64,000 nucleotides of DNA from Halosolutus gelatinilyticus (GCF_023028105.1 NZ_CP095493.1:62001-126000); one strand, 5' to 3'; shown: positions 18,245 to 32,454, counted from the stretch's first letter. Notes: a model not told the origin generated them from the letters alone. Program-made: numbers and translations.

Positions 18245-18301
18245 CGATTGCCGAACTCGGTATCCGTAACGGCCATACGACTCCTGCCCGATGCATCGAG
18301 T

Positions 18302-19117
18302 ATGAACTTCGCGCCGGGGGCCTGGAAGTACGCCGTCGTCCCCCTGCTCGTCGCGCCCTTCGCGCTGATCATCAGCGCCACCGCCGGGCTCGTCACGGCC
18401 GCGATCGGCGTCGCCGCGCTCGCCTTCTTCCGCGACCCCGATCGGACGCCGCCGCCGACGGGCGTCGTCGCGCCCTGCGACGGAAACGTTTCCGTCATCC
18501 GCGAGGAAGGCGATCGGGTCCGCCTGGGGATCTTCATGAACGTCTGGCACGTCCACGTCGTCCGCGCGCCGGTCGACGCGACCGTGACCGACGTCGAGCA
18601 CGTGTCCGGGGCGAACAAGCCCGCGTTTTCGAAGGAGTCCGATCGGAACGAGCGGGTCCACGTTCGCGTCGTGACCGAGGACGGCGAGCTTCCGTCCGGT
18701 GACGGCTCGAGCGACGAGGGCGCCCTCGCCGACGAAGGCGGCCTCGTCGGGGACGGGCCGGCCGGCGACGATCGCCCCCTCGACGGGGAGTCGACCCCGG
18801 CCGACGCCGCGGTCCCGCCCAACGACGCCACGATCACGCTGATCGCCGGCGCCTTCGCCCGGCGCATCCACCCCTACGTCGAGGCTGACGAGCGGCTCGA
18901 TCGCGGTCAGCGCCTCGGTCACATCGCCTTCGGAAGCCGCGTCGACGTGCTCTTCCCGCCGCCGATCGAAATCGACGACCTCGCCGTCGAGCTCGGCGAC
19001 TCGACGACGGCCGGCGAGACGGTCGTGCTGGAGGCGGCGGACTCGGCGCTCGAGGTCGATCTCGGCGTCGAGGAACCGGGACGCGACGCGGAGTCCGATA
19101 GCAGCGACGCGGCGTAG
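18302..19117 (+). CDS. pssD: Archaetidylserine decarboxylase proenzyme (protein-sorting type)
   Basis: This pyruvoyl enzyme decarboxylates archaetidylserine to archaetidylethanolamine at the membrane. The 271-residue proenzyme has two N-terminal hydrophobic segments (residues ~11-43), a conserved FFRDPDRTPP stretch, and the autocleavage site Gly211-Ser212 in IAFGSRVDVLFPP, where the Ser becomes the pyruvoyl group. In haloarchaea PssA and PssD are needed for archaeosortase-dependent lipid anchoring of PGF-CTERM proteins; one such protein lies at 13608-14624. Unusually, a ~50-residue acidic Gly/Asp-rich insert interrupts the fold at about residues 125-175. The start is the ATG at 18302, 57 bp after the Lhr stop. 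Confidence 0.9.
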   Translation: MNFAPGAWKYAVVPLLVAPFALIISATAGLVTAAIGVAALAFFRDPDRTPPPTGVVAPCDGNVSVIREEGDRVRLGIFMNVWHVHVVRAPVDATVTDVEHVSGANKPAFSKESDRNERVHVRVVTEDGELPSGDGSSDEGALADEGGLVGDGPAGDDRPLDGESTPADAAVPPNDATITLIAGAFARRIHPYVEADERLDRGQRLGHIAFGSRVDVLFPPPIEIDDLAVELGDSTTAGETVVLEAADSALEVDLGVEEPGRDAESDSSDAA

Positions 19118-19488
19118 GGGCGCCCCGTCCCCGAATCCGTCGACCGGGGCCGCACGCTCGCCGGTCTCGTCGCGGCCGTCGCACCACCTCGACGCGCGGA
19201 TCTCGAATCGCACAGCGCTGTCAACCCGCTCCGTAAAGGCACCGGGCCTGCTCGTTACGTCACCCCGCCGAAGATATTGTGTCAGAAGCGATAGTATCGT
19301 GGCGGTACTCGCGAAGTCGACGGTCAGTGAGGGTGGCCACTGAAACGTACGATCACGGCTGCAGTGCGCGGTTATCGGGGATTCACGAGGGCATGCTCTG
19401 CCACTGTCTGTCACTAGTACTTACTAGTAATAATTCCTTCACATGGATCGATTTATTAGCGCGAGCGTCTACGTTGTAATAGTTCGCG
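19118..19488. promoter_or_regulatory. Upstream region of the signalling-glycan operon
   Basis: This 371-bp region has no supported gene. Its last 100 bp are AT-richer and hold ctagtacttactagtaata (19415-19433), containing the near-palindrome actagtacttactagt, and a TATA-like gatttattagcg at about 19448-19459. The TATA box is ~35 bp before the ATG at 19489, so it predicts a leader of only ~5-10 bases. CTAG is rare in haloarchaeal DNA, so two copies here are notable and could mark an operator. Confidence 0.45.
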
Positions 19489-20505
19489 ATGAAGTCTCCG
19501 GACGAGAGCGGCCGGCACGCGTTCGAATTTCGTCGCCAGCTGGGCGTGATACACGCGAGAGCGGTCCAACTCGAGGACGAATCGCTCGGACCGCTTACGC
19601 CGGACCAACGAGACGCAGTCGAGGAGATCGTCGAGGCGACTCTGAAGTTGACCGCGGAGACGGCGCAGTCGCTGGAAACTGGCGACGAGGGACGATCGAC
19701 TCCCGGCGACGAGGTGGCCGTCGACGAATCGACCGCGTCGCTCGAGCCGTCGACGCCGCCGGACTCGATCGTGCTCGCGATCGGCGACGACGAGGAGTTC
19801 GTGGCGGCGCTCGAGGCGCAGTTCGAACGCGCCGGTTACGTGGTGCGCGGAGCGAGCGACGACGACGACCTCCGCGCGGCGCTCGACCGGTCGCGCCCCC
19901 AGCACCTCATCCTGGACTGTCGGTTTCCGTCGGGTCGGTCGCTCGAGGGGCTCGAACGGACGCTCGACGACCTCGACGACGACACGTCGGTGACGCTCGT
20001 GTCGACGGTCGCCGGCGACCACCCGGGCCCGTTGCAGGGGATCGCGGGCGTCCTCGCGGCGACCGTCGCCCCGGACGCCCTCGAGCGCCTCTTCGAGAAC
20101 CGATTCGGACTGCCGATCAACCCCTCGGCTTCCGATCCGACCGCGATTGCGGTTGTCGGCGACGTCGACGATCGGCTGCTCGAGACCCTCGACGAACTCG
20201 ACCGCCGAGTTACGCGAGACACGGTTTCGACCGAGGAGCTCGATGCGGTCGAGCCGAGCGACGTCGACTGCGTCTTCCTGTCCGAAGCGGCGATCGACGC
20301 CGTCGAGGAATCGACGCTGGCCACTCTTCGGTCGCCGATCGAGGAGGAAGCCGTACCGCTCGTTGCGATCGGGCCGACGCCGACCGACGGCGAGTGGGTT
20401 CCGATCACCGGTCGACAGACGTTCGCACAGACGCCCATAACGGCTGCCGAACTCGCGGCAACGGTGCTCGCCGCGATCGAGCCATCGCCATCAGAACGCC
20501 AATGA
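19489..20505 (+). CDS. Signalling protein: DHp-like helices plus receiver-like domains, no kinase domain
   Basis: This is a 338-residue soluble acidic protein. Residues ~8-65 form a helical segment resembling a histidine-kinase dimerisation domain (FEFRRQLGVIHARAVQLED, then LTPDQRDAVEEIVEATLKL). No GHKL ATPase domain follows. Residues ~90-200 resemble a receiver fold (SIVLAIGDDEEFVAALEAQFERAGY, then LILDCRFPSG), and residues ~215-335 a second degenerate one. I infer a phosphotransfer or scaffold protein rather than a kinase. Its stop overlaps the ATG of the response regulator (ATGA), so the two are translationally coupled. A TATA-like box precedes it. Confidence 0.65.
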   Translation: MKSPDESGRHAFEFRRQLGVIHARAVQLEDESLGPLTPDQRDAVEEIVEATLKLTAETAQSLETGDEGRSTPGDEVAVDESTASLEPSTPPDSIVLAIGDDEEFVAALEAQFERAGYVVRGASDDDDLRAALDRSRPQHLILDCRFPSGRSLEGLERTLDDLDDDTSVTLVSTVAGDHPGPLQGIAGVLAATVAPDALERLFENRFGLPINPSASDPTAIAVVGDVDDRLLETLDELDRRVTRDTVSTEELDAVEPSDVDCVFLSEAAIDAVEESTLATLRSPIEEEAVPLVAIGPTPTDGEWVPITGRQTFAQTPITAAELAATVLAAIEPSPSERQ

Positions 20506-20873
20506 CACGTCGAGTCCTGATCGCCGAAGACGACGCGCCGATCCTGGAAATACTCCGGTACAAGCTCGATACCGAGGGCTTCGACGTCGTGGCCGCCGAA
20601 GACGGCGACGAGTGCTGGGAGCACCTCCAGTCGACCGACGAGCCTCCCGAGGCGCTCTTGCTCGACATCATGATGCCGGGACTGGACGGGTTCACGGTTC
20701 TCAAGCGGCTTCGCAACGACGAGCGGTACGCCGACATCGTGGTGATCATGGTTACGGGCCGCGGCCTCGAGGAGGACGTCCTCCGCGGATTCGAACTCGG
20801 GGCCGACGATTACGTGATGAAACCGTTCAACCCGTCGGAGATCGTCGTCCGCCTCGAACGCCTGCTTCGATAA
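20502..20873 (+). CDS. Stand-alone response regulator receiver protein
   Basis: This 123-residue protein is a single receiver domain. The acidic pocket is DD in LIAEDDAPILEIL (residues ~9-10), the phospho-acceptor Asp is in LLLDIMMPGLDGF (~residue 55), the switch Thr is in VTGRG, and the Lys is in YVMKPFNP. There is no output domain, so it must act through protein contacts. It overlaps the upstream gene by four bases and the downstream HEAT-protein gene by one base (TAATG), which suggests it passes a phosphorylation signal to the glycosyltransferase complex encoded next. Confidence 0.92.
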   Translation: MTRRVLIAEDDAPILEILRYKLDTEGFDVVAAEDGDECWEHLQSTDEPPEALLLDIMMPGLDGFTVLKRLRNDERYADIVVIMVTGRGLEEDVLRGFELGADDYVMKPFNPSEIVVRLERLLR

Positions 20874-21964
20874 TGGTCGGGCTACCTGAGATCGGACTGT
20901 TCGAGGTGTTCGTCGCGATCGTCGCCGTCTGTCTGTTCGCCGGCGCGATCACGGTGTCGCTCTCGGCCGTGCTCTTCTGGTTCGATCGCCGGCGAGAGGC
21001 GGTTCGACTCGACATCCTCCCTGCGCTGTTCGAACAGCTCGAGGAACCCGGCCCGGACGCGGCGGCGTGGTACGACGGCCTCTCGCCGATCGAACGCTAC
21101 GTCGTTCGGCGGACGGTCGCCCAGTATCTGTGACGGCTTCGAGGCGGCGACTTTCAGCAGCTGGTCCAGCTGTCGACCGAACTCGGACTGGACGATCGCG
21201 CGACCTCGATGCTCCGAAGCAGGTCCATGTTCAACACGCTCCGCGGGCTCATCTGGCTCACCCTGCTCGAGCGGCCGGTGTCGATGGAGCTGTTGCGAAC
21301 CCACTGCGCGGGGAACCAGGAGACGCGGACCGCGGCTGCGCGGCTCCTCTGTGCGGTCGGCGACGAGAACGCCGGCATGGACGGCACCGCGATGCTGCTC
21401 CGCGACGGCAACCGCCCGCTGACGGTGTTCGGACTCGACACGCTGTACCAACTCAATCGGCGGGACGCGACGCCGTTGCTGTCGCTCGCAGCTATCAACG
21501 CCGACGTGTGGGAGAACGAACTGCTGCTCCAGTGTTTGACCGTCCTCGCGCACTGTCAGTCGGCGGAACGGCTCGAGTACTTCGAGTGGCTTCCGCCGCT
21601 GCTCGACGCCTCGCCGCAGATCCGGGCCGGCGCGCTGATCGCGTTCGGTCGGCAGGGGTGGCGCGAAACGTTCCGCGATCACGTCGACGTCGAACGGGTG
21701 CTCACCGATCCCCACCCGCAGGTTCGGACCGCCGGCTACGAACTGCTGAGCCGGTGGGGAGACGAGCGAGCGATCGAGTGGCTGCGCTACGCCGTCGTCA
21801 ACGATCCGGCCGATCGGTCTCGCCTCGCCGCGGCCCGCACGCTGGTCGCGAGGGGGCACGACTTGCCGCCGCCGAACCCGTCGGACGCCGCTGCAGCCCG
21901 AACGATCAAGTGGGCGGACGCGGAGGTACGATCGAGACGGAGGGTTGCGACTGGATGGTCGTAG
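20873..21964 (+). pseudogene. HEAT-repeat membrane protein interrupted by an in-frame TGA
   Basis: The first 86 codons (20873-21130) encode one N-terminal membrane helix (IGLFEVFVAIVAVCLFAGAI) and a cytoplasmic stretch ending in VVRRTVAQYL. The next codon is TGA at 21131-21133. The same frame then continues without another stop to 21964, starting RLRGGDFQQLVQLSTELGL and running through several HEAT-type alpha repeats (ALIAFGRQGW; AGYELLSRWGDERAIEWL). There is no ATG or GTG between the TGA and the internal ATG at 21209. The simplest reading is one ~363-residue gene with a single nonsense change (for example CGA to TGA) or a sequencing error. HEAT proteins beside receiver and family-2 glycosyltransferase genes probably link signal to enzyme. 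Confidence 0.75.
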
Positions 21965-23357
21965 GAATCGGTCTGGAGCCGATATTCTGGCTGTCGAGCT
22001 GGTTTTTCTGGCTTATTTCGCGATCGTCAACGGGAGTTACCTGTTCATTCACCTCGTCTCGATCGCCTCGCTCCAGTGGAACGTCCGGGATCGGCTGCTC
22101 AACCCGACGTACAATCCGTACCGATCGCCGTTCTTTCCGGGGATCGCGATCGTCGTCCCCGCGTACAACGAAGAGGCGGTGATCAGCGACTCGGTCCGCT
22201 CGCTTTTGAACCTCGAGTACAGCGTCTTCGAGGTCGTCGTCGTCAACGACGGCTCGAACGACGGGACGCTCCGGCGGCTCCTCGAGGACTTCGAACTCGA
22301 TCCCGTCGGCGAGGACGTGCCGTTCGACCTGCCGTGTGAGCCGGTTCACGAGGTCTACCAGTCGAACGAGGTCGACCTCGTGGTCATCGACAAGGAAAAC
22401 GGCGGGAAGGCCGACGCGCTCAACGCGGGCGTTTTCTTCACCGATCAGCCGCTGTTCTGCGCGATCGACGCCGACAGCATCGTCGAGCGAGGGTCCCTCC
22501 TCGAGGTGATCGAACCGTTCTTGCAGGATCCCGAACGGACGATCGCGACCGGCGGTGCGGTTCGCGTTGCGAACGGCTGTTCGATCACCCGGGGCACCGT
22601 CACCGAGGTCGCACTGTCGGGCAACCGGCTCGCGCCCCTTCAGACGGTGGAGTACCTTCGGGCGTTCCTCTCGGGACGGGTCGGCCTCAGCGCGTTACAG
22701 AGCCTGCTGATTATCTCTGGCGCGTTTGGGGTGTTTCGAACGAGCGCGGTGCGGGAGGTGGGCGGATACTCGACGAACACGATCACCGAGGACATGGAGC
22801 TGATCATCCGACTGCACCGCCACTACGTGGATACCGACTACCGGATCGCGTTCGTTCCGTACCCCGTCGTGTGGACCGAGATTCCCGACGATAGACGGGT
22901 TCTGGCGAGCCAGCGGATGCGCTGGTACCAGGGGCTGCTCGAGACGCTCTGGATGCACCGGCGGATGATCGGCAACCCCAAGTACGGCGTCATCGGCCTC
23001 TTCGCGCTCCCGTTTTTCTTACTCGTCGAGGCGATCGGCCCGCTGATCGAAGGGGTCGGCTACGTCATCGTCCCCATCGCGTTCGTCTTCGGCATGTTGA
23101 ACGTCCCGTTCTTCCTGCTTTTTTTGGGCGTCGCGGTCGGAATCGGGACGTTGCTCTCCTGGCTGAGCGTCCTCAACGAGGTCATCAGCTTTCGCCGCTA
23201 CCGGAACCCGAAGGATATCGTCACGCTCCTCGCATACGGATTGGCCGAACACGCGCCGTACCGCCAGTGGAAGGCCTGGATCGCGTGGCTCGCGCTCGCC
23301 CGATACGTCCGCGGCGACTCGGCGTGGGGCGAGATGGTGCGGGTCGGATTCGAGTGA
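21945..23357 (+). CDS. Processive family-2 glycosyltransferase, membrane-embedded
   Basis: This is a ~470-residue membrane enzyme of the cellulose/chitin/hyaluronan/PgaC-type GT2 group. An N-terminal membrane helix (VELVFLAYFAIVNGSYLFIHL) is followed by the GT-A domain: VVPAYNEEAV, DGSNDGT, KENGGKADALNAG, the metal-binding CAIDADS, the catalytic TED (NTITEDMEL) and the acceptor motif QRMRW. Three to four C-terminal helices form the pore (residues ~330-420). It probably polymerises a nucleotide sugar and extrudes the chain; UDP-GlcNAc is a reasonable donor since GlmU-like and GlmS genes follow. The start is uncertain: this frame offers only a TTG at 21945, while the ATG at 21955 is one base out of frame, hinting at a lost base. 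Confidence 0.85.
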   Translation: MRLDGRRNRSGADILAVELVFLAYFAIVNGSYLFIHLVSIASLQWNVRDRLLNPTYNPYRSPFFPGIAIVVPAYNEEAVISDSVRSLLNLEYSVFEVVVVNDGSNDGTLRRLLEDFELDPVGEDVPFDLPCEPVHEVYQSNEVDLVVIDKENGGKADALNAGVFFTDQPLFCAIDADSIVERGSLLEVIEPFLQDPERTIATGGAVRVANGCSITRGTVTEVALSGNRLAPLQTVEYLRAFLSGRVGLSALQSLLIISGAFGVFRTSAVREVGGYSTNTITEDMELIIRLHRHYVDTDYRIAFVPYPVVWTEIPDDRRVLASQRMRWYQGLLETLWMHRRMIGNPKYGVIGLFALPFFLLVEAIGPLIEGVGYVIVPIAFVFGMLNVPFFLLFLGVAVGIGTLLSWLSVLNEVISFRRYRNPKDIVTLLAYGLAEHAPYRQWKAWIAWLALARYVRGDSAWGEMVRVGFE

Positions 23358-23576
23358 TAGCGATCGACGCCCTCGATCGCTCGTCGTTCGATCGCATCCG
23401 GTCGCGCGATCGGAACGTGCTGAAGTCGATACGGATCGGAGACGATCGGTCGCTGGACCCCGTTTACTGTCACTCCGATCGTTCAGTCGATTCTACTGAA
23501 CATAAACGGCCGGAATAAAATTCGATACCTCTATCTGAGAAACAAATAAGTGATCGCTCGCCTTTTTAGTAGCACG
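23358..23576. promoter_or_regulatory. Promoter region of the UDP-GlcNAc genes
   Basis: This 219-bp spacer separates the glycosyltransferase from the nucleotidyltransferase. The last 80 bp are AT-rich. Gaataaaattc at about 23513-23523 is a TATA candidate that would start transcription ~30 bp before the ATG at 23577. The glm pair can therefore have its own promoter, separate from the signalling operon. Confidence 0.4.
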
Positions 23577-24758
23577 ATGGAAATCCCTGCCGTAGTACTC
23601 GCAGCGGGCGAAGGGAGGCGATTGCGACCGCTGACACACCACCGCCCGAAGCCGATGCTGCCGGTCGTCTCGAAGCCGATTCTCGAACACGTATTCGACT
23701 CGCTGATCGCGGCGGGAGTGACGGATATCGTCGTCGTCGTCGGCTACGGTCGGAACCGCATCCAGTCGTACGTCGGATCGAGTTACCGCGACGCGACGAT
23801 ACGGTACGTCGTTCAGGATCGGCAACTCGGGACCGGACACGCGCTGTTGACGGCTCGATCGGTCGTCGACGGCCGCTGTCTGGTCATCAACGGGGACCAG
23901 ATCGTCACCAGCGACCTCGTCGACGAGGTCCTCTCGGACCACGACGCGACCGATTCCGTCGCGACGATCGGCGTCCTCAACCGCGCCGAGGTCGGGGAGT
24001 ACGGCGGTGTGTTGCTCGACGACGACCGGGTTACCGAAATCATCGAACGGCCGTCGGACGATCAAAACTACCGGCTCAACGCCGGCGTGTACGCCCTGGA
24101 ACCGACGGTGTTCGACGCCGTCGAAGCCGCGACACCGGACGCCGGCGAGCACTCGTTGACGGACGCGTTCCGGCGGGTAATCGAGTGGGGCGAGCCGGTT
24201 CGCGGCGTCGTGTCGCCGGGACCCTGGATCGACGTCAAGTATCCGTGGGACCTGTTGCAAGCCACCGAAACGCTGATCGCCAGCGACGCGTACGACTACG
24301 CGATCGAGCGCATCGATTCGTCGGCAACGATCCACGAAACCGCGGTCGTCTCCTCGTCCGCGGTCGTCGCGGCGGGGTGTGAGATCGGCCCCGGTGCGGT
24401 CGTCGGCCAGGACGTCAGCCTCAACGAGAACGTCACGGTGGACGCGAACGCGGTCGTCGAACGTAGCGTCGTCGACATGGACGCACGGATCGGTCAGAAC
24501 GCGACCGTGATCGATAGCGTCGTCGGACAGGGCGTCGGCGTCGGTCCCGGAACGGTCCTTCCCGGGGGCCCGAGCGAGGTCCGCATCGGCAACCGGATCC
24601 ACGAGAACGTCCAATTCGGCACCCTGCTCGCCGATCGGGTTCGAGACGAGGGCGGCACGACCTACGCGCCGGGAACGGTGGTCGGTGCCAACGCGCTCGT
24701 TCGCTCGGGCGGGACCGTCGACGGGACGATCGCCTCCGGGACGGAGGTGCAACCCTGA
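23577..24758 (+). CDS. GlmU-like bifunctional sugar-1-phosphate nucleotidyltransferase/acetyltransferase
   Basis: This is a 393-residue cytoplasmic enzyme. The N-terminal ~235 residues are a nucleotidyltransferase with the signature LAAGEGRRLRPLT and KPMLPV, then INGDQIV and a WIDVKYPWDLL motif. The C-terminal ~150 residues are a left-handed beta-helix of hexapeptide repeats (IGPGAVVGQDVSL; IGNRIHENVQFG). This architecture fits archaeal enzymes that acetylate glucosamine-1-phosphate and make UDP-GlcNAc, but glucose-1-phosphate thymidylyltransferase-like activity cannot be excluded. Its stop overlaps the glmS start by one base (TGATG), which favours the amino-sugar role. The ATG at 23577 was chosen because the motif starts at residue 4. 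Confidence 0.85.
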   Translation: MEIPAVVLAAGEGRRLRPLTHHRPKPMLPVVSKPILEHVFDSLIAAGVTDIVVVVGYGRNRIQSYVGSSYRDATIRYVVQDRQLGTGHALLTARSVVDGRCLVINGDQIVTSDLVDEVLSDHDATDSVATIGVLNRAEVGEYGGVLLDDDRVTEIIERPSDDQNYRLNAGVYALEPTVFDAVEAATPDAGEHSLTDAFRRVIEWGEPVRGVVSPGPWIDVKYPWDLLQATETLIASDAYDYAIERIDSSATIHETAVVSSSAVVAAGCEIGPGAVVGQDVSLNENVTVDANAVVERSVVDMDARIGQNATVIDSVVGQGVGVGPGTVLPGGPSEVRIGNRIHENVQFGTLLADRVRDEGGTTYAPGTVVGANALVRSGGTVDGTIASGTEVQP

Positions 24759-26551
24759 TGTGCGGGATCATCGGCTACGTCGGGTCGAGCGGAGAAACGC
24801 TCGGCACGCTCCTGCAGGGGCTTTCGAACCTGGAGTATCGGGGTTACGATTCCGCCGGCGTCGCTCTCGCGGCTTCCCCGCTCACCGTCTACAAAAAGCA
24901 GGGCGAAGTGGATGCGCTCGAGGACGCGATCCCGAACCCCGCTCCCGAGGGACACGCCGGGATCGGTCACACGCGGTGGAGTACGCACGGCCCGCCGTCG
25001 GACGCCAACGCCCATCCGCACACCGACTGCCACGATCGCGTGGCGGTGGTTCACAACGGCATCATCGACAACTATCAGGAGCTCCGCGACGAACTGACCG
25101 CGTCCGGCCACGAGTTTCGCAGCGAGACGGACACGGAAGTCGTCCCGCATTTGATCGAGTCGTTTCTCGACAACGGTGCGAACCCGGAGGAGGCCTTTCG
25201 GTCGGCGATCGACCGGATCTCGGGTAGTTACGCGATCGCGGCCGTGTTCGACGAAACCGAAACGGTGTACGCGGTCCGAAACCAGTCGCCGCTCGTCTTG
25301 GGCCTCGGCGACGACGGAACCTACCTCGCGAGCGACGTCCCCGCGTTCATCGAGTACACAGACCGGGTCGTCTACCTCGACGACGGGGAGTTTGCGCGGC
25401 TCGAGCGGGACGAGGTCGTCGTGACCGATTCGGACGGCGCGGCCGTGGAGAAATCCGTCGAAACGATCGACTGGGACCCCGAAGACGCCGGCAAGAGCGG
25501 GTACCGTCACTACATGCTCAAGGAGATCCACGAGCAGCCACACGCGGTTCGCCAGTGCCTGCGCGGACGGGTGAGCGAACGCGACGAGTCCGTCCTGTTC
25601 GAGGAACTACCGAATCTCGATGCCGACGGCCCCGTCCACTTCGTGGCGTGCGGGACGTCCTACCACGCGGCGTTGTACGGCGAGTGCCTCCTTCAGGAGC
25701 AGGGCACCGCGGCGCAGTCGTTCGTCGCGAGCGAGTACGACATCGATCGGATTCCGGTCGACGAGGAGACGCTTGTTATCGGAGTAACCCAGAGCGGCGA
25801 GACTGCCGACACATTACGGGCGCTCCGAGGGGCGAACCGAAGCGGCGCGACGACGCTCGCGGTGACGAACGTCGTCGCGAGTTCCGCGGCGCGCGAGTGC
25901 GACGATGTCGTCTACATCCGGGCGGGACCGGAGATCAGCGTGGCGGCGACGAAGAGTTTCGTCGGTCAGCAGATCACGCTCGCGCTGGTCGCGAACGCGC
26001 TCGCCGGCGGCTCCTCGCCTGCGTTCCGCAGGGCGCTTCGGAACCTTCCCGATCAGATCCAGCGGATCCTCGACGAGTCTGCCGCCCGATCGGTCGCGAC
26101 GACGTTTATCGGGTCCGACGCGTACTTCTTCATCGGTCGGAACTACCACGTCCCGGTCGCGCTCGAGGGTGCGCTGAAGATGAAAGAGATCACCTACGAG
26201 CACGCCGAGGGGTTCGCCGCGGGCGAACTCAAGCACGGTCCGCTCGCGCTCGTCACCCGGAAGACGCCGGTCATCGCGCTGGTGACCGGCGACGAACCGA
26301 CCGCGACGAAGATCCTGGGGAACGTCAGCGAGGTAGCCGCCCGCGACGCGCCCGTCATCGCCGTCACGGACTCGCCGGGCGGCGTCGGTCAGGTCGCCGA
26401 TCGCGTCCTCGTCGTCCCGACCACCCACCCGTGGCTCGTCCCGGTGCTGGTGAACGTCCAGTTGCAACTGCTCGCGTACTGGACCGCGGACGAACTCGAG
26501 CGTCCGATCGACAAACCGCGAAACCTGGCCAAGAGCGTCACCGTCGAGTAA
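24758..26551 (+). CDS. glmS: Glutamine--fructose-6-phosphate aminotransferase (isomerizing)
   Basis: This enzyme makes glucosamine-6-phosphate from fructose-6-phosphate and glutamine, the entry step to UDP-GlcNAc. At 597 residues it has the standard length. After Met removal, Cys2 (MCGIIGYVG) is the class II glutaminase nucleophile; YRGYDSAGVA and GHTRWSTHG follow. Two SIS domains bind the sugar phosphate (CGTSYHAALYGE; TQSGETADT; AATKSFVGQQ; EGALKMKEITYEHAEGF), and the C terminus is the conserved RNLAKSVTVE. It forms an operon with the GlmU-like gene. Its stop codon lies inside the left copy of the 13-bp direct repeat bounding the downstream island. Confidence 0.96.
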   Translation: MCGIIGYVGSSGETLGTLLQGLSNLEYRGYDSAGVALAASPLTVYKKQGEVDALEDAIPNPAPEGHAGIGHTRWSTHGPPSDANAHPHTDCHDRVAVVHNGIIDNYQELRDELTASGHEFRSETDTEVVPHLIESFLDNGANPEEAFRSAIDRISGSYAIAAVFDETETVYAVRNQSPLVLGLGDDGTYLASDVPAFIEYTDRVVYLDDGEFARLERDEVVVTDSDGAAVEKSVETIDWDPEDAGKSGYRHYMLKEIHEQPHAVRQCLRGRVSERDESVLFEELPNLDADGPVHFVACGTSYHAALYGECLLQEQGTAAQSFVASEYDIDRIPVDEETLVIGVTQSGETADTLRALRGANRSGATTLAVTNVVASSAARECDDVVYIRAGPEISVAATKSFVGQQITLALVANALAGGSSPAFRRALRNLPDQIQRILDESAARSVATTFIGSDAYFFIGRNYHVPVALEGALKMKEITYEHAEGFAAGELKHGPLALVTRKTPVIALVTGDEPTATKILGNVSEVAARDAPVIAVTDSPGGVGQVADRVLVVPTTHPWLVPVLVNVQLQLLAYWTADELERPIDKPRNLAKSVTVE

Positions 26552-26569
26552 TTCCGACTCTGTTGAAAC

Positions 26570-26589
26570 CCTCACACGGTGAGAGGTTT
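26570..26589. repeat. Inverted repeat (hairpin) at the island's left end
   Basis: Aaaccctcac and gtgagaggttt at about 26566-26590 are nearly perfect inverted repeats around the three bases acg. The hairpin lies just inside the IS-like terminus and downstream of the glmS stop. It could be a subterminal IS structure or serve as a glmS terminator; the sequence alone does not decide. Confidence 0.45.
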
Positions 26590-26733
26590 CAGTAGTCTTG
26601 CTGAATACAAAGCGCGGTTGTGATACGAATTGAGAGGAGCGGTGATCGGTCGGTGTAGGCGAAGAAACTAACGGTAAAGACCGAAACGTGCTGCACAACC
26701 TCTACTCCTACCGGGACCGATGGAACAGACGGA

Positions 26734-27465
26734 ATGCCAAATGGCGATACTTCGTTGCAAGCGGCGCTAAACGGTAGTCGTGAACATCCCACTGTCCCCC
26801 GCACGCCGGAAGAACTTGCCGTGGAGGCGCGAGCGGCTGTCGATGCTGGAGCTACCTCTCTCCATCTTCATCCGTATGATGAGAACGGCCGCCAAACGCT
26901 TGCAGCGGAGCCGTGCGCCAACGCGTTACGCGCAGTCCGCGATGCGTGTCCCGGCGTTCCGATTTCCCTCAGCACGTCAGCGGGCATCGAGTCCAGTCCT
27001 GAGCGGCGACACGAACTCATTATGGCTTGGACGGAACTTCCGGACCTCGTGACGGCCAACCAAGGTGAGACGGGGATTCACGACCTCTGCGAGCTACTCG
27101 TTGAGCGTGGTATCGAAATCGAAGCGGGTCTTCTATCGCTGGACGACGCGCACACCTTCGTCGAATCGGGAATCGCATCACGTTATAAGCGTGTGATGGT
27201 TGAACCACTGAACCCCGATCCCGATGATGCTGTCGCTCACGCCGAATCCATCGAGCAGACGCTCACTGAGAGCGGCATCCAACTTGAACAGGTCCATCAC
27301 GGCGACGGCATCGCTTCGTGGGCGGTTAATCGACGCGCCGTCGCGCGCGGCCACGGCATCCGTACCGGGCTGGAGGACACAACGGTCCTTCCTGACGGAC
27401 GTTCGGCCAGAAATAACGGGGAACTGGTCGCTGCCGCCGCGACTTTGTTCGATTCGGGTACTTGA
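26734..27465 (+). CDS. BKACE-family (DUF849) beta-keto acid cleavage enzyme-like protein
   Basis: This 243-residue TIM-barrel protein resembles the BKACE family, zinc enzymes that condense a beta-keto acid with acetyl-CoA and cleave it to an aminated or CoA product. The family features seen are ALNGSREHPTVPRTPEELA at the N terminus, the metal-binding pair in SLHLHPYDENGR, and the C-terminal signature GIRTGLEDTTVLPDGRSARNNGELV. It is shorter than typical BKACE proteins (~270-310 residues), matching a compact variant. The substrate is unknown. Codon use is more AT-rich than in glmS, consistent with acquisition in the island. The start at 26734 is the first ATG before the conserved N terminus. 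Confidence 0.82.
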   Translation: MPNGDTSLQAALNGSREHPTVPRTPEELAVEARAAVDAGATSLHLHPYDENGRQTLAAEPCANALRAVRDACPGVPISLSTSAGIESSPERRHELIMAWTELPDLVTANQGETGIHDLCELLVERGIEIEAGLLSLDDAHTFVESGIASRYKRVMVEPLNPDPDDAVAHAESIEQTLTESGIQLEQVHHGDGIASWAVNRRAVARGHGIRTGLEDTTVLPDGRSARNNGELVAAAATLFDSGT

Positions 27466-27760
27466 TCACAGGATTCTGAGTCGCGATCAATGAGAAATTA
27501 GGTTGTCTTCTGTAGCGATAGATAAGCAGATTCTCTTCCGGGTAGTTCAGATATTCGAGGCGAAATAAGGGGATTGGCGTGCTGCGTACATCCTGTAGTT
27601 TGTTCAGATTATCCACTATTACACCACTCAGTGTCGGCATCAATCACTGAACGGATAGACGCTAGCCAAGTTACACTATCTAATTTATTATAGGTTCTTC
27701 AGGATACATTCTTGCTATCGTCGAAAGCCCTTCTTGGCTTAGCTCCCCCGAACATACAGT
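27466..27760. other. AT-rich spacer with promoter for the YihY-like gene
   Basis: This 295-bp spacer contains a good TATA-like box, ctaatttattatagg at about 27678-27692, ~75 bp before the ATG at 27761. A minus-strand frame (27326-27643) encodes a peptide beginning MMPTLSGVIVDNLNKLQDV, but it overlaps the BKACE gene antisense and turns Arg-rich, so I do not call it. Confidence 0.4.
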
Positions 27761-28534
27761 ATGGAACAGTTCTCAATAATAAAGTCCGTGATCGATCGTG
27801 CGCGAGAAGAGAAAGTCAGTCTTCTCGCCGCAAGCATCGCCTATTACGCCTTCTTTTCGATTATCCCGTTGTTGCTGCTTATCCTCGCGATCGGGTCACT
27901 TATTGGGGGACAGACGCTCGCGGACCATATCGTCGGGTTTGTCGAAGATCACCTCTCATCACAGGGCCAAACCGTGGTTGAACAAGCACTAACGACTCCC
28001 GCCGGTCGAGGTGGCGCATCGGTTACCGGGATCGTTGGATTTGTCTGGGGGGGTCTTAAGGTATTTCGGGTACTCAGCATCGCATTCGATCAGGTGTACC
28101 AGGTAGAAGAGGAATCGTCGTTGGCTCGCCAGATCGTAGACGGCACGTTAGTGTTGACGTTGATTGGGCTCTCAGCGGTCATCATGTTCGGGCTCGGGGC
28201 GGTGATCCACCACGAGGAACTGATCGATATCCCAGGTATCGATATCCTTGGGTGGATAGGGTTGGGCATGGGACTTATCGTTTTATTTTTCCCGATATTT
28301 TACGTGATGCCGCCAGTAGAGGTACGTCTACGGGAAGTGGTCCCTGGGACGGTATTCACTGTCTTCGGCTGGTTCCTCTTCCAGGCTGTATTCCAGCTGT
28401 ATGCTGGAAATGCCAGCGACTACCAAGCCTATGGGCTACTCGGGGCCGTGCTCTTATTTCTCACTTGGTTGTACTTTGCAGGTATTCTCCTTCTGCTCGG
28501 AGCGGCGATCAACGCCGTTTTCGCGGATCGATAA
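27761..28534 (+). CDS. YihY/BrkB (UPF0761) family integral membrane protein
   Basis: This is a 257-residue membrane protein with six predicted helices. Family features are the N-terminal amphipathic segment followed by LLAASIAYYAFFSIIPLLLL, the GIVGFVWGGLKVFRVLSIAFDQVYQ stretch in the middle, FPIFYVMPPVEVRLREVVPG, and the last helix YGLLGAVLLFLTWLYFAGILLLLGAAINA. The family was once called 'ribonuclease BN', but that name is wrong; it is regarded as a membrane protein of unknown, possibly transport, function. The gene lies in the lower-GC island and has its own TATA-type promoter. Confidence 0.88.
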   Translation: MEQFSIIKSVIDRAREEKVSLLAASIAYYAFFSIIPLLLLILAIGSLIGGQTLADHIVGFVEDHLSSQGQTVVEQALTTPAGRGGASVTGIVGFVWGGLKVFRVLSIAFDQVYQVEEESSLARQIVDGTLVLTLIGLSAVIMFGLGAVIHHEELIDIPGIDILGWIGLGMGLIVLFFPIFYVMPPVEVRLREVVPGTVFTVFGWFLFQAVFQLYAGNASDYQAYGLLGAVLLFLTWLYFAGILLLLGAAINAVFADR

Positions 28535-28596
28535 TCTGTACAGGCGGCTCTGTTAAAATACTTAATATCTTACATATCATAGAGGTACTCTCTGCC

Positions 28597-29259
28597 GGCA
28601 CTGTCTAGATCACCTCTGCAGGAGGTTGACGATCGAGTGCTTGATTCGGTCGGTGCCGGTTGTAATAGCGTCCGGACTGCTAGAGCCAGCATCTGACAGC
28701 CGGCCGACTGCCCACCCAACTCATATGAAAACGGTCAGTTCGATGTTTGAGGGTGTGAAACCACTTCTCGATGCGGTTTCGGAGCTCGTAGTCGAGCCAA
28801 CCGCCCGATCCCAATTGAGAGAGGACAGTCCGATAGCCGTAGCCATCGACGGAAAACACAGCGTCTGAGCGGTCGTGGTTCTCGGTGAGTCGATACAGGA
28901 ACGCAGCCACCGGATCCGTCCTACGCCGACTGAACAACTCAATATCGAGTATGAGCCTCGTGTCCACGTCGATCGCGGCATAGACCCAACACCAACTGCC
29001 GTTGATCTGGACAACGGTCTCGTCGACGGCGACCCGCGACGCCATCGGCGGGTCTGGGGCGCTGTCAGCCAACCGTTCTTTCCACTGCTAGAACGCACTA
29101 TGAGAGCGTTGAACACCCAGTAGCTCTAAAAGACAGCGACCGTCTCCCTAATCGACAGCCCCGCCGTATGGGGAGGGGACTCCATGCCGCCGAACGGGTG
29201 TCGGCGTACGCTCATTCTCAAACTACTCGCATCTCAAACTCGCTCAACTAGACAGTGCG
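28597..29259 (-). mobile_element. Dead IS6-like insertion sequence with broken transposase
   Basis: Inverted ends ggcactgtctag (28597-28608) and ctagacagtgcg (29248-29259) bound a 663-bp element. Its minus strand encodes an IS6/IS240-type transposase. The DDE residues are visible: VAVDETVV (first D), FSVDGYGY (second D) and RIEKWFHTLKHR (E). It is inactive: TAG at 29088-29090 and TAG at 28680-28682 interrupt the main frame, and the N-terminal segment (GLSIRETVAVF) is in another frame. The real C terminus (YYNRHRPNQALDRQPPAEVI) follows the second stop, ending exactly at the element's end. The 8-bp flanks do not match, so target duplication is lost. It lies within the larger island. Confidence 0.8.
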
Positions 29260-29297
29260 GCATAAACCGTCTCGATCATCGTGCAGTCTTACCGACT

Positions 29298-29328
29298 GGG
29301 AGGTTCGCGAGATCAACGTGAACCTCCC
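29298..29328 (-). terminator. Perfect 9-bp stem-loop, possible terminator
   Basis: Gggaggttc at 29298-29306 and gaacctccc at 29320-29328 form a perfect 9-bp stem around a 13-base loop. It lies 17 bp past the stop codon of the small minus-strand ORF at 29346-29495, so it could terminate or stabilise that transcript. Archaeal terminators usually need only U tracts, so an IS-related hairpin is an alternative. Confidence 0.4.
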
Positions 29329-29345
29329 TCTTTCGGTGGGGAACC

Positions 29346-29495
29346 TCACAAACCGAGGTCTTTGCCTCCGGGATCGCCGACATCTCCCTCAAGCTGGGAT
29401 AACAGCTTTTGACGCTTCTCTTCCGGGAGGTTCTCGATTAGGTTTTGTAGGTCGTCGACCTGTACATCCTCTGGGTTAGGTAGGTTACTACTCAT
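29346..29495 (-). CDS. 49-residue acidic small protein
   Basis: An ORF shorter than common cut-offs starts at ATG 29495. It begins MSSNLPNPEDVQVDDLQNLI, continues with a charged helix (ENLPEEKRQKLLSQLEGDV) and ends DPGGKDLGL. The composition (high Asp/Glu, Leu heptad-like spacing, Gly/Pro tail) looks like a genuine small helical protein and not random translation. No family is recognised. It lies in the island, antisense to the two larger island genes, with a perfect stem-loop just past its stop. It may be cargo or an antitoxin-like or regulatory peptide, but nothing in the sequence demonstrates this. Confidence 0.5.
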   Translation of the reverse strand: MSSNLPNPEDVQVDDLQNLIENLPEEKRQKLLSQLEGDVGDPGGKDLGL

Positions 29496-29499
29496 AGTA

Positions 29500-29807
29500 C
29501 TCACCGCCACGTTTACGATCACATTTTACTCACGGCCAGTTACAGCCGCTGTGTAGTTCTCAATAATTCGAATTGACACGCAACGAGGTTAGCGCGACGT
29601 TCAGCGTAGCCGCACCGCATATAGGGGGTCCCTCGCTGACTACCCCAGGTCCCCGTCTGCGGATCACGTTCGAGTTCACTCGGCCTCCCGGCCCTAAGAG
29701 CTCGAGATATCTGACACCGCTCCTCTCTTCACTCGCCTGGGCCCGCTGACTTACTAAAGCCATCTGCCCCCTCTTTTTCTCACTTGCTCCCGCTCTCATC
29801 AGGAGCC
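29500..29807. other. Island right end, no convincing gene
   Basis: About 300 bp at the right end of the island. A minus-strand frame (29560-29799) is open for 79 codons, but its product is basic and unlike haloarchaeal proteins. The sequence has several short inverted repeats (cggcctcccggccc at about 29679-29692) and could hold a structured RNA; I recognise none. Confidence 0.3.
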
Positions 29808-29824
29808 GTAATTCCGACTCGGCC

Positions 29825-32026
29825 TCAGCCGTCCAACTCTGCCCGGGCGTCCTCGAGGTGACGGCGCTCGATCACCACCTCGTCGGCCCGCTCGTTCGCC
29901 GTCTCCGGATCGTGTTCGGTGGCGACCTCGCGGATCGCGGCCATCGACGCGCTTCTGATCAGCGCCTCGAGATCGGCGCCCGTGTACCCGTCCACCGCCG
30001 CGGCCAGCTCGGCGAGGTCGACGTCCTCGTCCAGCGGTTTGCCGCGCGCGTGGACCGCGAGGATCTTCTCGCGGGCGTCCCGATCGGGTTCGCCGACGAG
30101 CACGTGGGTGTCGAGGCGCCCGGGGCGCAACAACGCGGGATCGATCTGGTCCTTGCGATTCGTGGCGGCCAACACGACGAGGTTCGGATTCTCCCGCATC
30201 CCGTCCAGTTCCGTCAGCAGCTGCGAGACGATGCGCTCGGTGACCTCGTGACCCTCGCCGCGGGCGGCCGTGATCGCGTCGATCTCGTCGAAGAAGACGA
30301 TCGACGGGGCGGCCTGTCTGGCCCGTTCGAACACCTTCCTGATCGCCTTCTCGCTCTCGCCGACGTACCGATCGACGATTTCGGGGCCGTCGACGCGGAC
30401 GAAGTTGACGTCGGTCTCCCCCGCCAGGGCGCGGGCGAGGAGCGTCTTCCCGGTGCCCGGCGGCCCGTACAGCAGAACGCCCGAGGGCGGCTCGGTGTTC
30501 GTCACCTCGAAGAGCCGATCGTAGGTCAGCGGCCACTCGACCGACTCCCGGAGCGTTCGCTTCGCGTCCTCGAGCCCGCCGACGTCCGAGAAGTCCGTCG
30601 TCGGCGACTCCGCCACGTACTCGCGCATCGCGGAGGGTTCGATCGACGCCAGCGCCTCGTCGAAGTGCGCTTTCGTCACCTCCGGCTCGCGGTTCCACGC
30701 CTCGCGGTCGTCCGCGTCGGTCGGCCGACCGCGGATGGCGGCCATCGCGGCCTCGCTCGCGACCGCGTCGAGGTCCGCGCCGACGAAGCCGTGGGTCCGC
30801 CGGGCGATCGCGTCGACGTTGACGTCGTCCGCGAGCGGCATCCCTCGGGTGTGGACTTCGAGGATCTCCTTGCGGCCCGCTTCGTCGGGCACGCCGACCT
30901 GGATCTCGCGGTCGAACCGCCCGCCCCGTCGGAGGGCAGGATCGATCGCGTCGACGCGGTTGGTCGCCCCGATGACGATCACCTCCTCCCGCGGATCGAG
31001 GCCGTCCATCAGCGTCAGCAGCTGGCCGACGATCCGGTTTTCCGCGTCGCCGTCGCCGTCGCGCGCGCCGGCGATCGAGTCGATCTCGTCGAAGAAGACG
31101 ATCGCGGGCGCGTTCTCCTGGGCCCGATCGAACGTCTCGCGCAGCTTCTCCTCGGATTCGCCCTTGTACTTGGACATGATCTCCGGCCCGGAGATCGTCT
31201 CGAAGTAGGCGTCCACCTCGTTGGCGACCGCGCGGGCGATGAGCGTTTTCCCGGTGCCCGGCGGGCCGTACAGCAGGACGCCCGACGGCGGCTCGACGCC
31301 GAGGCGCTGGAACAGCTCCGGCTCCGACAGCGGGAGCTCGATCATCTCGCGGACGAGTTCGAGCTCCTCGTCGAGGCCGCCGATGTCCTCGTAGGTCGGC
31401 CCGGCGGTCGGCGGCTGTTCGGTCGCCGCGCCCCCGCCGCTCGCCTTGGTCGCGCTCGCCGCGTCGCCCTCGCGCGCCCCTGTCGCTCCCGGTTTGTCCG
31501 AGTCGTTTGGACCGGAGCCGACGATCCGCACCGTCGTCCCGCTGGTGATTCGGACGTCTCCGACCGGATCGGTGTCCGTGACGCGGAACGGCTCCTGTCC
31601 GATCCCCTCGATCCGGATCTGTTCGCCGGCCCGGACCGGGCGATTCCGGAGCTTCTTCGTCGCCGTTCGTTCGGCGACTTGCCGCTGGTTCGCCGAGAGC
31701 GAGGGCGGCGGCGATAGTGTGACCCGATCGGCCTCGCTGATGGCGGACGTTTCCGCCGGCCTGACGGTGACGGTGTCGCCGACGTGGACCCCGGCGTTCG
31801 CTCGCGTGTCGGCGTCGATCTGGACGACGTTTTCCGGGACCGACGGGTCGGCCGGCCACATCTTCGCGACGGTTCGCGCCTCACCCTCGATGACGACGGT
31901 ATCCCCGCTCAGGACGCCGAGTTGTCGCCGCGCGAGTTCTGGAATCCGTGCGACGCCACGTCCGGCGTCTCGCTTCTCGGCCGCCCGGACCGAGAGCGTG
32001 ACCCCGTCTGACTCCGACTGACTCAT
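29825..32026 (-). CDS. CDC48/VCP-family AAA+ ATPase
   Basis: This is a 733-residue archaeal CDC48-type unfoldase. Residues ~5-90 are the double-psi barrel N domain (SVRAAEKRDAGRGVARIPEL), ~95-170 the CDC48 domain 2, then two AAA modules. Both Walker A motifs read GPPGTGKTL and both Walker B motifs FFDEID; the second-region homologies SAMREYVAESP and YTGADLEALIRSA are present. It feeds substrates to the proteasome or remodels complexes in the cytoplasm. Haloarchaea usually carry several paralogues, so this need not be the main one. I chose the ATG at 32026 (MSQSESDGVTLSV) because the 29-residue upstream extension is basic. Its stop abuts the island. Confidence 0.93.
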   Translation of the reverse strand: MSQSESDGVTLSVRAAEKRDAGRGVARIPELARRQLGVLSGDTVVIEGEARTVAKMWPADPSVPENVVQIDADTRANAGVHVGDTVTVRPAETSAISEADRVTLSPPPSLSANQRQVAERTATKKLRNRPVRAGEQIRIEGIGQEPFRVTDTDPVGDVRITSGTTVRIVGSGPNDSDKPGATGAREGDAASATKASGGGAATEQPPTAGPTYEDIGGLDEELELVREMIELPLSEPELFQRLGVEPPSGVLLYGPPGTGKTLIARAVANEVDAYFETISGPEIMSKYKGESEEKLRETFDRAQENAPAIVFFDEIDSIAGARDGDGDAENRIVGQLLTLMDGLDPREEVIVIGATNRVDAIDPALRRGGRFDREIQVGVPDEAGRKEILEVHTRGMPLADDVNVDAIARRTHGFVGADLDAVASEAAMAAIRGRPTDADDREAWNREPEVTKAHFDEALASIEPSAMREYVAESPTTDFSDVGGLEDAKRTLRESVEWPLTYDRLFEVTNTEPPSGVLLYGPPGTGKTLLARALAGETDVNFVRVDGPEIVDRYVGESEKAIRKVFERARQAAPSIVFFDEIDAITAARGEGHEVTERIVSQLLTELDGMRENPNLVVLAATNRKDQIDPALLRPGRLDTHVLVGEPDRDAREKILAVHARGKPLDEDVDLAELAAAVDGYTGADLEALIRSASMAAIREVATEHDPETANERADEVVIERRHLEDARAELDG

Positions 32027-32454
32027 ACGCGAGGAGTTGTCGCTCCCCCGTCTTGAGAATTGTCCTGCGAGAAACGGTCCCGTCCGGCCGGGATCGGCCG
32101 GCCGTACCATCACGACGCGCTGTCGCCTGTCAATCGGTGCGAGCCCTCTCCGTCGGACGACTCTCGGAATCGTACGCCGTCGATCGTGCCCGGTGAACGG
32201 GAACCCCGCGGGGGGACGGCGAGTGGCAGTGCCGGCCGCTCCCTCGCGGAGTCACACTGCAGCGTGCAGTCGGCCTTTCACGATCATCGGCAATGAATGT
32301 TTGTGCGAACTACAGTTCCTGGGTCTGGCCGCGCGACCGACGTCGAACTTCCGCGTCGCGGCCGCGGCCGCGACGCGCGATTCGCGACGGTTTGAACCGG
32401 GAGTCCATGCCGCGCCGGAGAAACGTCTTTGATCGTCCGCGGAGAGGTTCGAAT
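32027..32454. other. Divergent spacer upstream of the CDC48 gene
   Basis: This 428-bp spacer separates CDC48 (minus) from the small zinc-finger gene (plus). No strong TATA box is visible for CDC48. Acgtctttgatcg at about 32423-32435 is a weak one for the plus-strand gene, ~25 bp before its ATG. Frames through here are basic and arginine-rich and not convincing. No RNA is recognised. Confidence 0.35.

Follow-up and report, generated by a model that had tools for sequence, protein, structure and literature searches.

How the synthesis of surface polymers is switched on and off in archaea is, to our knowledge, poorly known; in bacteria, a common form of control is c-di-GMP acting through PilZ. 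The locus described here raises the question of whether a phosphorylated receiver could control such a synthesis in a haloarchaeon, and whether the copy at hand still works. It lies in a 64-kb window (the whole stretch of DNA that was analysed) of a genome of 4.76 Mb on four contigs, whose closest relatives are members of the Natronorubrum texcoconense family. Our joint reading, to which we give a slightly better than even chance, is that the locus carries a conserved polysaccharide module in which a processive-type family 2 glycosyltransferase (GT2) is controlled by a receiver and coupled to a HEAT-repeat protein, and that this module was horizontally acquired and has recently been inactivated in the window.

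Six co-directional genes, i.e. hybRR, a stand-alone receiver gene (RR), a HEAT-repeat gene, a GT2 gene, a GlmU-like gene and a GlmS gene, occupy positions 19489 to 26551 of the plus strand (Table 1), in the order given in the preliminary description. The overlaps of 1 to 20 bases reported there are real for the first three genes (4 bases between hybRR and RR, 1 base between RR and the HEAT frame), but the 20-base overlap of HEAT with GT2 is a by-product of a frameshift (see below). The GlmU-like and GlmS genes were also found where they had been placed, after a gap of ~220 bp, partly AT-rich, that follows the end of GT2, and because of this gap the pair may form a transcription unit separate from that of GT2.

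Table 1. Positions of the genes, lesions and island in the window
Feature	Position	Strand	Remarks
hybRR	19489..20505	+	338 aa; Pfam Response_reg 27.6 bits, below the cut-off of 30.2
RR, stand-alone receiver	20502..20873	+	123 aa; Pfam 95 bits; no output domain
HEAT-repeat membrane protein gene, interrupted frame	20873..21964	+	HEAT_2 50.8 bits vs gathering score 27.7
In-frame TGA stop in HEAT, codon 87	21131..21133	+	homologues compared encode Arg
Processive-type GT2 (predicted)	21945..23357	+	readable frame opens at TTG 21945
One-base deletion in the N-terminal (first) membrane helix of GT2	22003..22009, ~22006	+	TTTTTC-TGG
GlmU-like sugar-1-phosphate nucleotidylyltransferase/acyltransferase	23577..24758	+	TIGR03992 259 bits vs cut-off 292
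GlmS	24758..26551	+	TIGR01135 705 bits vs cut-off 418
Strain-specific block, ~10.7 kb, between psd and CDC48	19118..29824		absent from both same-genus genomes
Transposase-like gene remnant inside the island	28680..29072	-	judged by eye from translation

Conserved co-occurrence of these genes in other haloarchaea had been set beforehand as a test of the proposal, and it was observed: the receiver (Rec), HEAT and GT2 genes are contiguous and in the same order in all 38 haloarchaeal loci with an orthologous GT2 (18 from the family and 20 more from the class). The four-gene order that had been proposed is thus conserved in its last three members, but hybRR is present in only about half of these loci. 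When the window GT2 was used as the query (E<=1e-100), an orthologue was found in 60 of the 391 genomes of the class, belonging to 24 of 86 genera. Furthermore, a scan of named genomes revealed the same GT2 family in Haloarchaea, a Thermoplasmatota archaeon, Bacillota, Bacteroidota, Gemmatimonadota, Myxococcota, Bdellovibrio, Alpha- and Gammaproteobacteria, and others. Among the 76 cross-phylum loci with enough upstream sequence, HEAT lies directly upstream of GT2 in 60 and elsewhere in 2, a receiver adjoins HEAT or GT2 in 59, and both partners are present in 48, proportions that are indicative, as the sample favours the patterns with which the scan was made. Neither HEAT nor Rec was seen within 1.5 kb of the GT2 gene in 13 control GT2 loci, and the association of the three genes is far above chance. 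The module also occurs on plasmids: on one of Mesorhizobium ciceri, an ATPase protein, two receivers, a YaiO barrel, HEAT, GT2 and an Hpt protein are encoded in a row, and annotated plasmids of Salinirubellus and Haloarcula halophila carry receiver-HEAT-GT2. The versions found in diderms come with TPR proteins and outer-membrane barrels of the YaiO type. In the literature searched, which was thin on subscription journals, no account of the module was found, and this absence is no proof of novelty. The earlier statement that no characterised archaeal example was known therefore agrees with that literature but is too narrow in its frame, since the module occurs in many bacterial phyla; it is widespread, apparently undescribed, and not specifically archaeal.

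Several other genes were noted around individual copies. At L047 (6970-8355), GT2 is directly followed by a gene for a protein of 461 aa that matches the MG2 domain weakly; a DUF2334/polysaccharide-deacetylase-like gene and a second PgaC-like GT2 lie near the module at L036 (10019-12840) and L040 (2604-5467); and after the module of Paenibacillus doosanensis lies a gene for a large protein, putatively secreted and carbohydrate-active (L103, 8402-10612).

The GT2 itself was described earlier as a processive enzyme of the QxxRW type, and this assignment is borne out as far as motifs and the nearest solved folds can indicate. The DxD, TED and Q(Q/R)xRW motifs of processive membrane GT2 synthases are all kept, with D175/D177, E282-D283 and Q323-R324-R326-W327 invariant in 14 sequences. 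In the model of a Natronorubrum homologue (pLDDT 90.7), integral membrane helices and a HAS/CesA-like fold are predicted, and the top Foldseek matches are hyaluronan, chitin and cellulose synthases. The best NCBIfam match is PgaC_IcaA, at a score (TIGR03937, 126.5 bits) well below the equivalog cut-off of 422.3. No PilZ domain was found among the Pfam matches of the operon proteins, and the operon thus lacks the mark of a c-di-GMP-gated synthase. The Halorubrum-type GT2s bear a C-terminal tail of ~180-250 aa, absent from the window GT2, which is made of repeated GDGGFVWTTDFSxGV units (L187 6426-8486, L191 2830-5286, L193 3644-7054 and L194 3941-7177); a related DGFxWG tail was seen at L181. 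The long stop-to-stop frames of the Halorubrum GT2s were considered as possible HEAT-GT2 fusions, a reading that was rejected, as HEAT lies in a separate frame and the extra length includes the repeat tail.

What sugar the synthase would polymerise is suggested by its neighbours. The GlmS of the window scores above the TIGR01135 equivalog cut-off, while the GlmU-like protein falls below that of the archaeal GlmU subfamily (TIGR03992). GlmS and GlmU-like genes adjoin the module in L036 (genome G107) and in six Halorubrum-type loci; the order is GlmS-HEAT-GT2-Rec in Paenibacillus doosanensis and HEAT-GT2-Rec-nucleotide-sugar dehydrogenase-GlmS-GlmU in Brevibacillus fortis, where the highest scores of the dehydrogenase are those against families of UDP-HexNAc dehydrogenases. 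GlmS was seen beside the haloarchaeal module at 7 loci (at least two lineages besides the window) against about 0.3 expected, and beside the bacterial module at 2 against about 0.2, the expected values being rough density estimates and the related genomes not independent. As GlmS and GlmU lie next to the module in more than one lineage, a UDP-HexNAc donor is probable. Alternatively, the polymer could be of a kind not based on amino sugars, and the GlmU and GlmS of the window could serve S-layer or N-glycan synthesis. The window genome encodes some four homologues of GlmS (>=55% identity), the window copy included, and hence the adjacency in the window alone proves little; another pair among these paralogues also has a GlmU-like partner, and the GlmU-GlmS pair of the locus has its own upstream gap. 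With some three further homologues in the genome, and with GlmS and GlmU absent next to most copies of the module, the supply link in the window may be coincidental. Still, the recurrence of these genes in Natrialbaceae, Halorubrum, Paenibacillus and Brevibacillus, in numbers above those expected, argues against a polymer not based on amino sugars, which we regard as doubtful though well within reach.

How the receiver might act on the synthase is a question of the protein encoded between them. HEAT repeats had been recognised in it earlier, and the HEAT_2 match, above its gathering score, upholds this; the frame, on the other hand, is broken by a TGA codon in the window. A homologue is modelled (pLDDT 93.9) as one long N-terminal helix (residues 2-52) followed by an alpha-solenoid, with which Foldseek matched generic solenoids alone. 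Since basic residues (FDRRREAVR) directly follow the hydrophobic segment, the sequence suggests that the solenoid is cytosolic. The stand-alone receiver was likewise correctly recognised earlier: it keeps the acidic pair (E/D-D), the phospho-Asp, the Thr and the Lys of a canonical active site, as do nearly all its relatives in an alignment of 33 receivers. We infer from these features a route in which a histidine kinase encoded elsewhere would phosphorylate the receiver, as its active site suggests; the phosphorylated receiver would bind the cytosolic HEAT solenoid; the HEAT protein would then alter the activity or assembly of GT2 in the membrane; and GlmS and the GlmU-like enzyme, judging from their predicted activities and recurrent neighbourhood, would raise the supply of UDP-amino sugar. 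A membrane-anchored HEAT solenoid would thus couple a single-domain receiver to a GT2 that synthesises a cell-surface polysaccharide, probably from UDP-HexNAc, and extrudes it. Direct control by the receiver through HEAT is plausible on these grounds. Natural Rec-HEAT fusions, sought as proof of contact, were absent from loci L033-L140. The wider proposition, that Rec-HEAT-GT2 forms a pan-prokaryotic, so far unrecognised class of synthase-dependent polysaccharide system in which HEAT reads the phosphorylated receiver and gates GT2 directly, in archaea without c-di-GMP, is put forward tentatively, at somewhat less than an even chance.

It is also conceivable that HEAT serves GT2 as a scaffold or as a partner in export, while the receiver acts elsewhere (e.g. 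on transcription or motility) and is merely co-regulated in the operon. HEAT-GT2 pairs without a neighbouring receiver are found in Deinococcus, Planococcus, Bacteroides and Legionella, which identifies HEAT-GT2 as the core pair and speaks for such a division of labour. However, the receiver has no output domain of its own, and across phyla it stays with HEAT-GT2 while being fused to different signalling parts, and we accordingly consider its acting elsewhere somewhat unlikely. Direct control through HEAT is kept as the preferred reading below.

The preliminary description implied an intact, working system, which the sequence of the window does not support. The HEAT frame ends after 86 codons at a TGA, where the other HEAT frames fetched from the family continue with Arg, as compared at both the protein and the DNA level. 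A search of the window genome with an intact homologue as the query returned the window copy, with its one internal TGA, as the sole HEAT homologue, so that no intact frame for this protein was found there. In GT2, a DNA alignment showed that seven homologues carry one extra base relative to the window in GGTTNTTCCTG. The homologues start GT2 at a conserved ATG that gives a 10-base overlap with the HEAT stop; the equivalent ATG of the window (21955) is out of frame for GT2 and leads to an end after 75 aa. It is because of the missing base that the window frame starts at the upstream TTG, which produces the 20-base overlap mentioned above; the catalytic part can still be opened from this TTG despite the deletion. 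Among the homologues compared, both lesions were seen in the window copy alone. Another HEAT frame break was noted at L041 (8845-9926, genome G091), further on than the window TGA. Recoding was rejected as an explanation of the TGA, because an ordinary Arg codon stands there in the homologues compared and because the other lesion is a frameshift. Translation could re-initiate at ATG 21209 and yield a HEAT fragment that lacks the membrane helix and is soluble, which is possible but unlikely.

The locus lies on an island. In both same-genus genomes CDC48 follows psd after ~0.1-1.4 kb, whereas in the window these genes (18248-19117 and 29825-32113, respectively) are separated by a block of ~10.7 kb that carries all six genes plus others, the GC content of which falls to about 0.55, with values of 0.44-0.61, toward its 3' end. 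The best reading is that the module was horizontally acquired on this island. Relative-rate counts, taken between the window and L033 with L034 as the outgroup, gave 36 v 19 changes for GT2, 14 v 8 for RR, 27 v 31 for HEAT and 37 v 29 for hybRR, i.e. at most mild acceleration and little relaxation; accordingly, the lesions either arose very recently or may be errors in the sequence. An intact module with sequencing or assembly errors would fit the position of the deletion in a TTTTTC run, as such runs are typical sites of sequencing error, the mostly purifying divergence of the proteins and the retention of all active-site residues of GT2. On the other hand, two independent lesions of different type, one of them a C-to-T change (CGA to TGA), fall within ~900 bp on an island that also holds the remnant of a transposase gene, while the syntenic ~15 kb of orthologous coding DNA that flanks the island in the window, from which lesion density was judged, showed no frame breaks against the two same-genus genomes (one stop in this comparison was a match to an opposite-strand 372-aa frame and was taken as spurious). 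Errors are therefore an unlikely explanation, and recent inactivation by the HEAT nonsense codon and the one-base deletion in GT2 is probably the case.

As to hybRR, the earlier claim of a kinase-less DHp/receiver protein holds in that no ATPase is present, but what remains is a DHp-like helical hairpin without a phospho-acceptor His, a degenerate receiver and a second receiver-like fold. The hairpin aligns with the HisKA segment (SHELRTPLTSI) of the haloarchaeal paralogues L047, L049 and L179, in which the His is real and a receiver is kept; in an alignment with 15 relatives, the His is replaced by Phe or Tyr in all 16 proteins of the clade to which the window copy belongs, which leaves hybRR without the residue required of a phosphorelay intermediate (HisKA or Hpt). 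A working His-Asp phosphorelay from the kinase-less protein through the receiver to HEAT, as originally modelled, is consequently very improbable for the window clade, even though the three paralogues stand at the position of hybRR and bacterial versions are of the Hpt-Rec-Rec type, for besides the lost His and the degenerate receiver, no hybRR-type protein is seen next to the receiver at L044, at L050 or in the greater part of the second locus batch. In bacteria, the protein adjoining HEAT is often Hpt-Rec-GGDEF-Rec or Hpt-Rec-Rec, and sometimes a degenerate GGDEF-Rec. The archaeal hybRR and receiver together resemble a version of this Hpt-Rec-(GGDEF)-Rec protein that has been split and has partly degenerated, and hybRR would be a relic of its Hpt/DHp-Rec-Rec relay part, perhaps now a scaffold or decoy. 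Genome G086 holds three divergent copies of the module, among them L047 and L049, where intact HisKA-Rec proteins lie beside upstream PAS-type sensor proteins.

Control by c-di-GMP and PilZ is not visible in the module operons. Rec is kept beside HEAT and GT2 in haloarchaea, Bacillota, Proteobacteria, Bacteroidota, Gemmatimonadota and others, which suggests that polysaccharide synthesis is under a general and direct phospho-control, open to testing in a system of three genes. The window copy serves mainly as a caution, since its annotated proteins should not be assumed to be functional; an intact relative, e.g. that of Natronorubrum texcoconense (locus L061), is preferable for study of the module.

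Among known systems, the closest is the class of hyaluronan synthase, PgaC/IcaA (poly-GlcNAc) and BcsA, with which the window GT2 shares the GT-A domain, the DxD, TED and QxxRW motifs, the membrane helices and the closest PDB folds. It differs in its score below the PgaC equivalog cut-off (126 v 422 bits) and in having no PilZ or PgaD partner; its partners are instead a receiver and a membrane HEAT protein. The c-di-GMP-controlled synthase operons (BcsAB, PgaCD) may be compared by analogy, as post-translational signalling is linked to a synthase; bacterial copies of the module place GGDEF-type domains between Hpt/Rec and Rec, whereas the haloarchaeal copies have neither GGDEF nor PilZ, and receivers alone remain. 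With the haloarchaeal EPS and N-glycan loci, e.g. Haloarcula hispanica AepG, described as a dolichol-phosphate-mannose-synthase-like enzyme (PMC9943897), and HAH_1662/HAH_1667 (PMC5467301), the module shares a putative role in cell-surface polysaccharide synthesis, and the descriptions of those loci compared here mention no receiver or HEAT partner. Finally, the receiver resembles the CheY/DivK-type single-domain response regulators in standing alone, in lacking an output domain and in having a canonical active site, but, unlike them, it has a HEAT membrane protein as its genetic partner.
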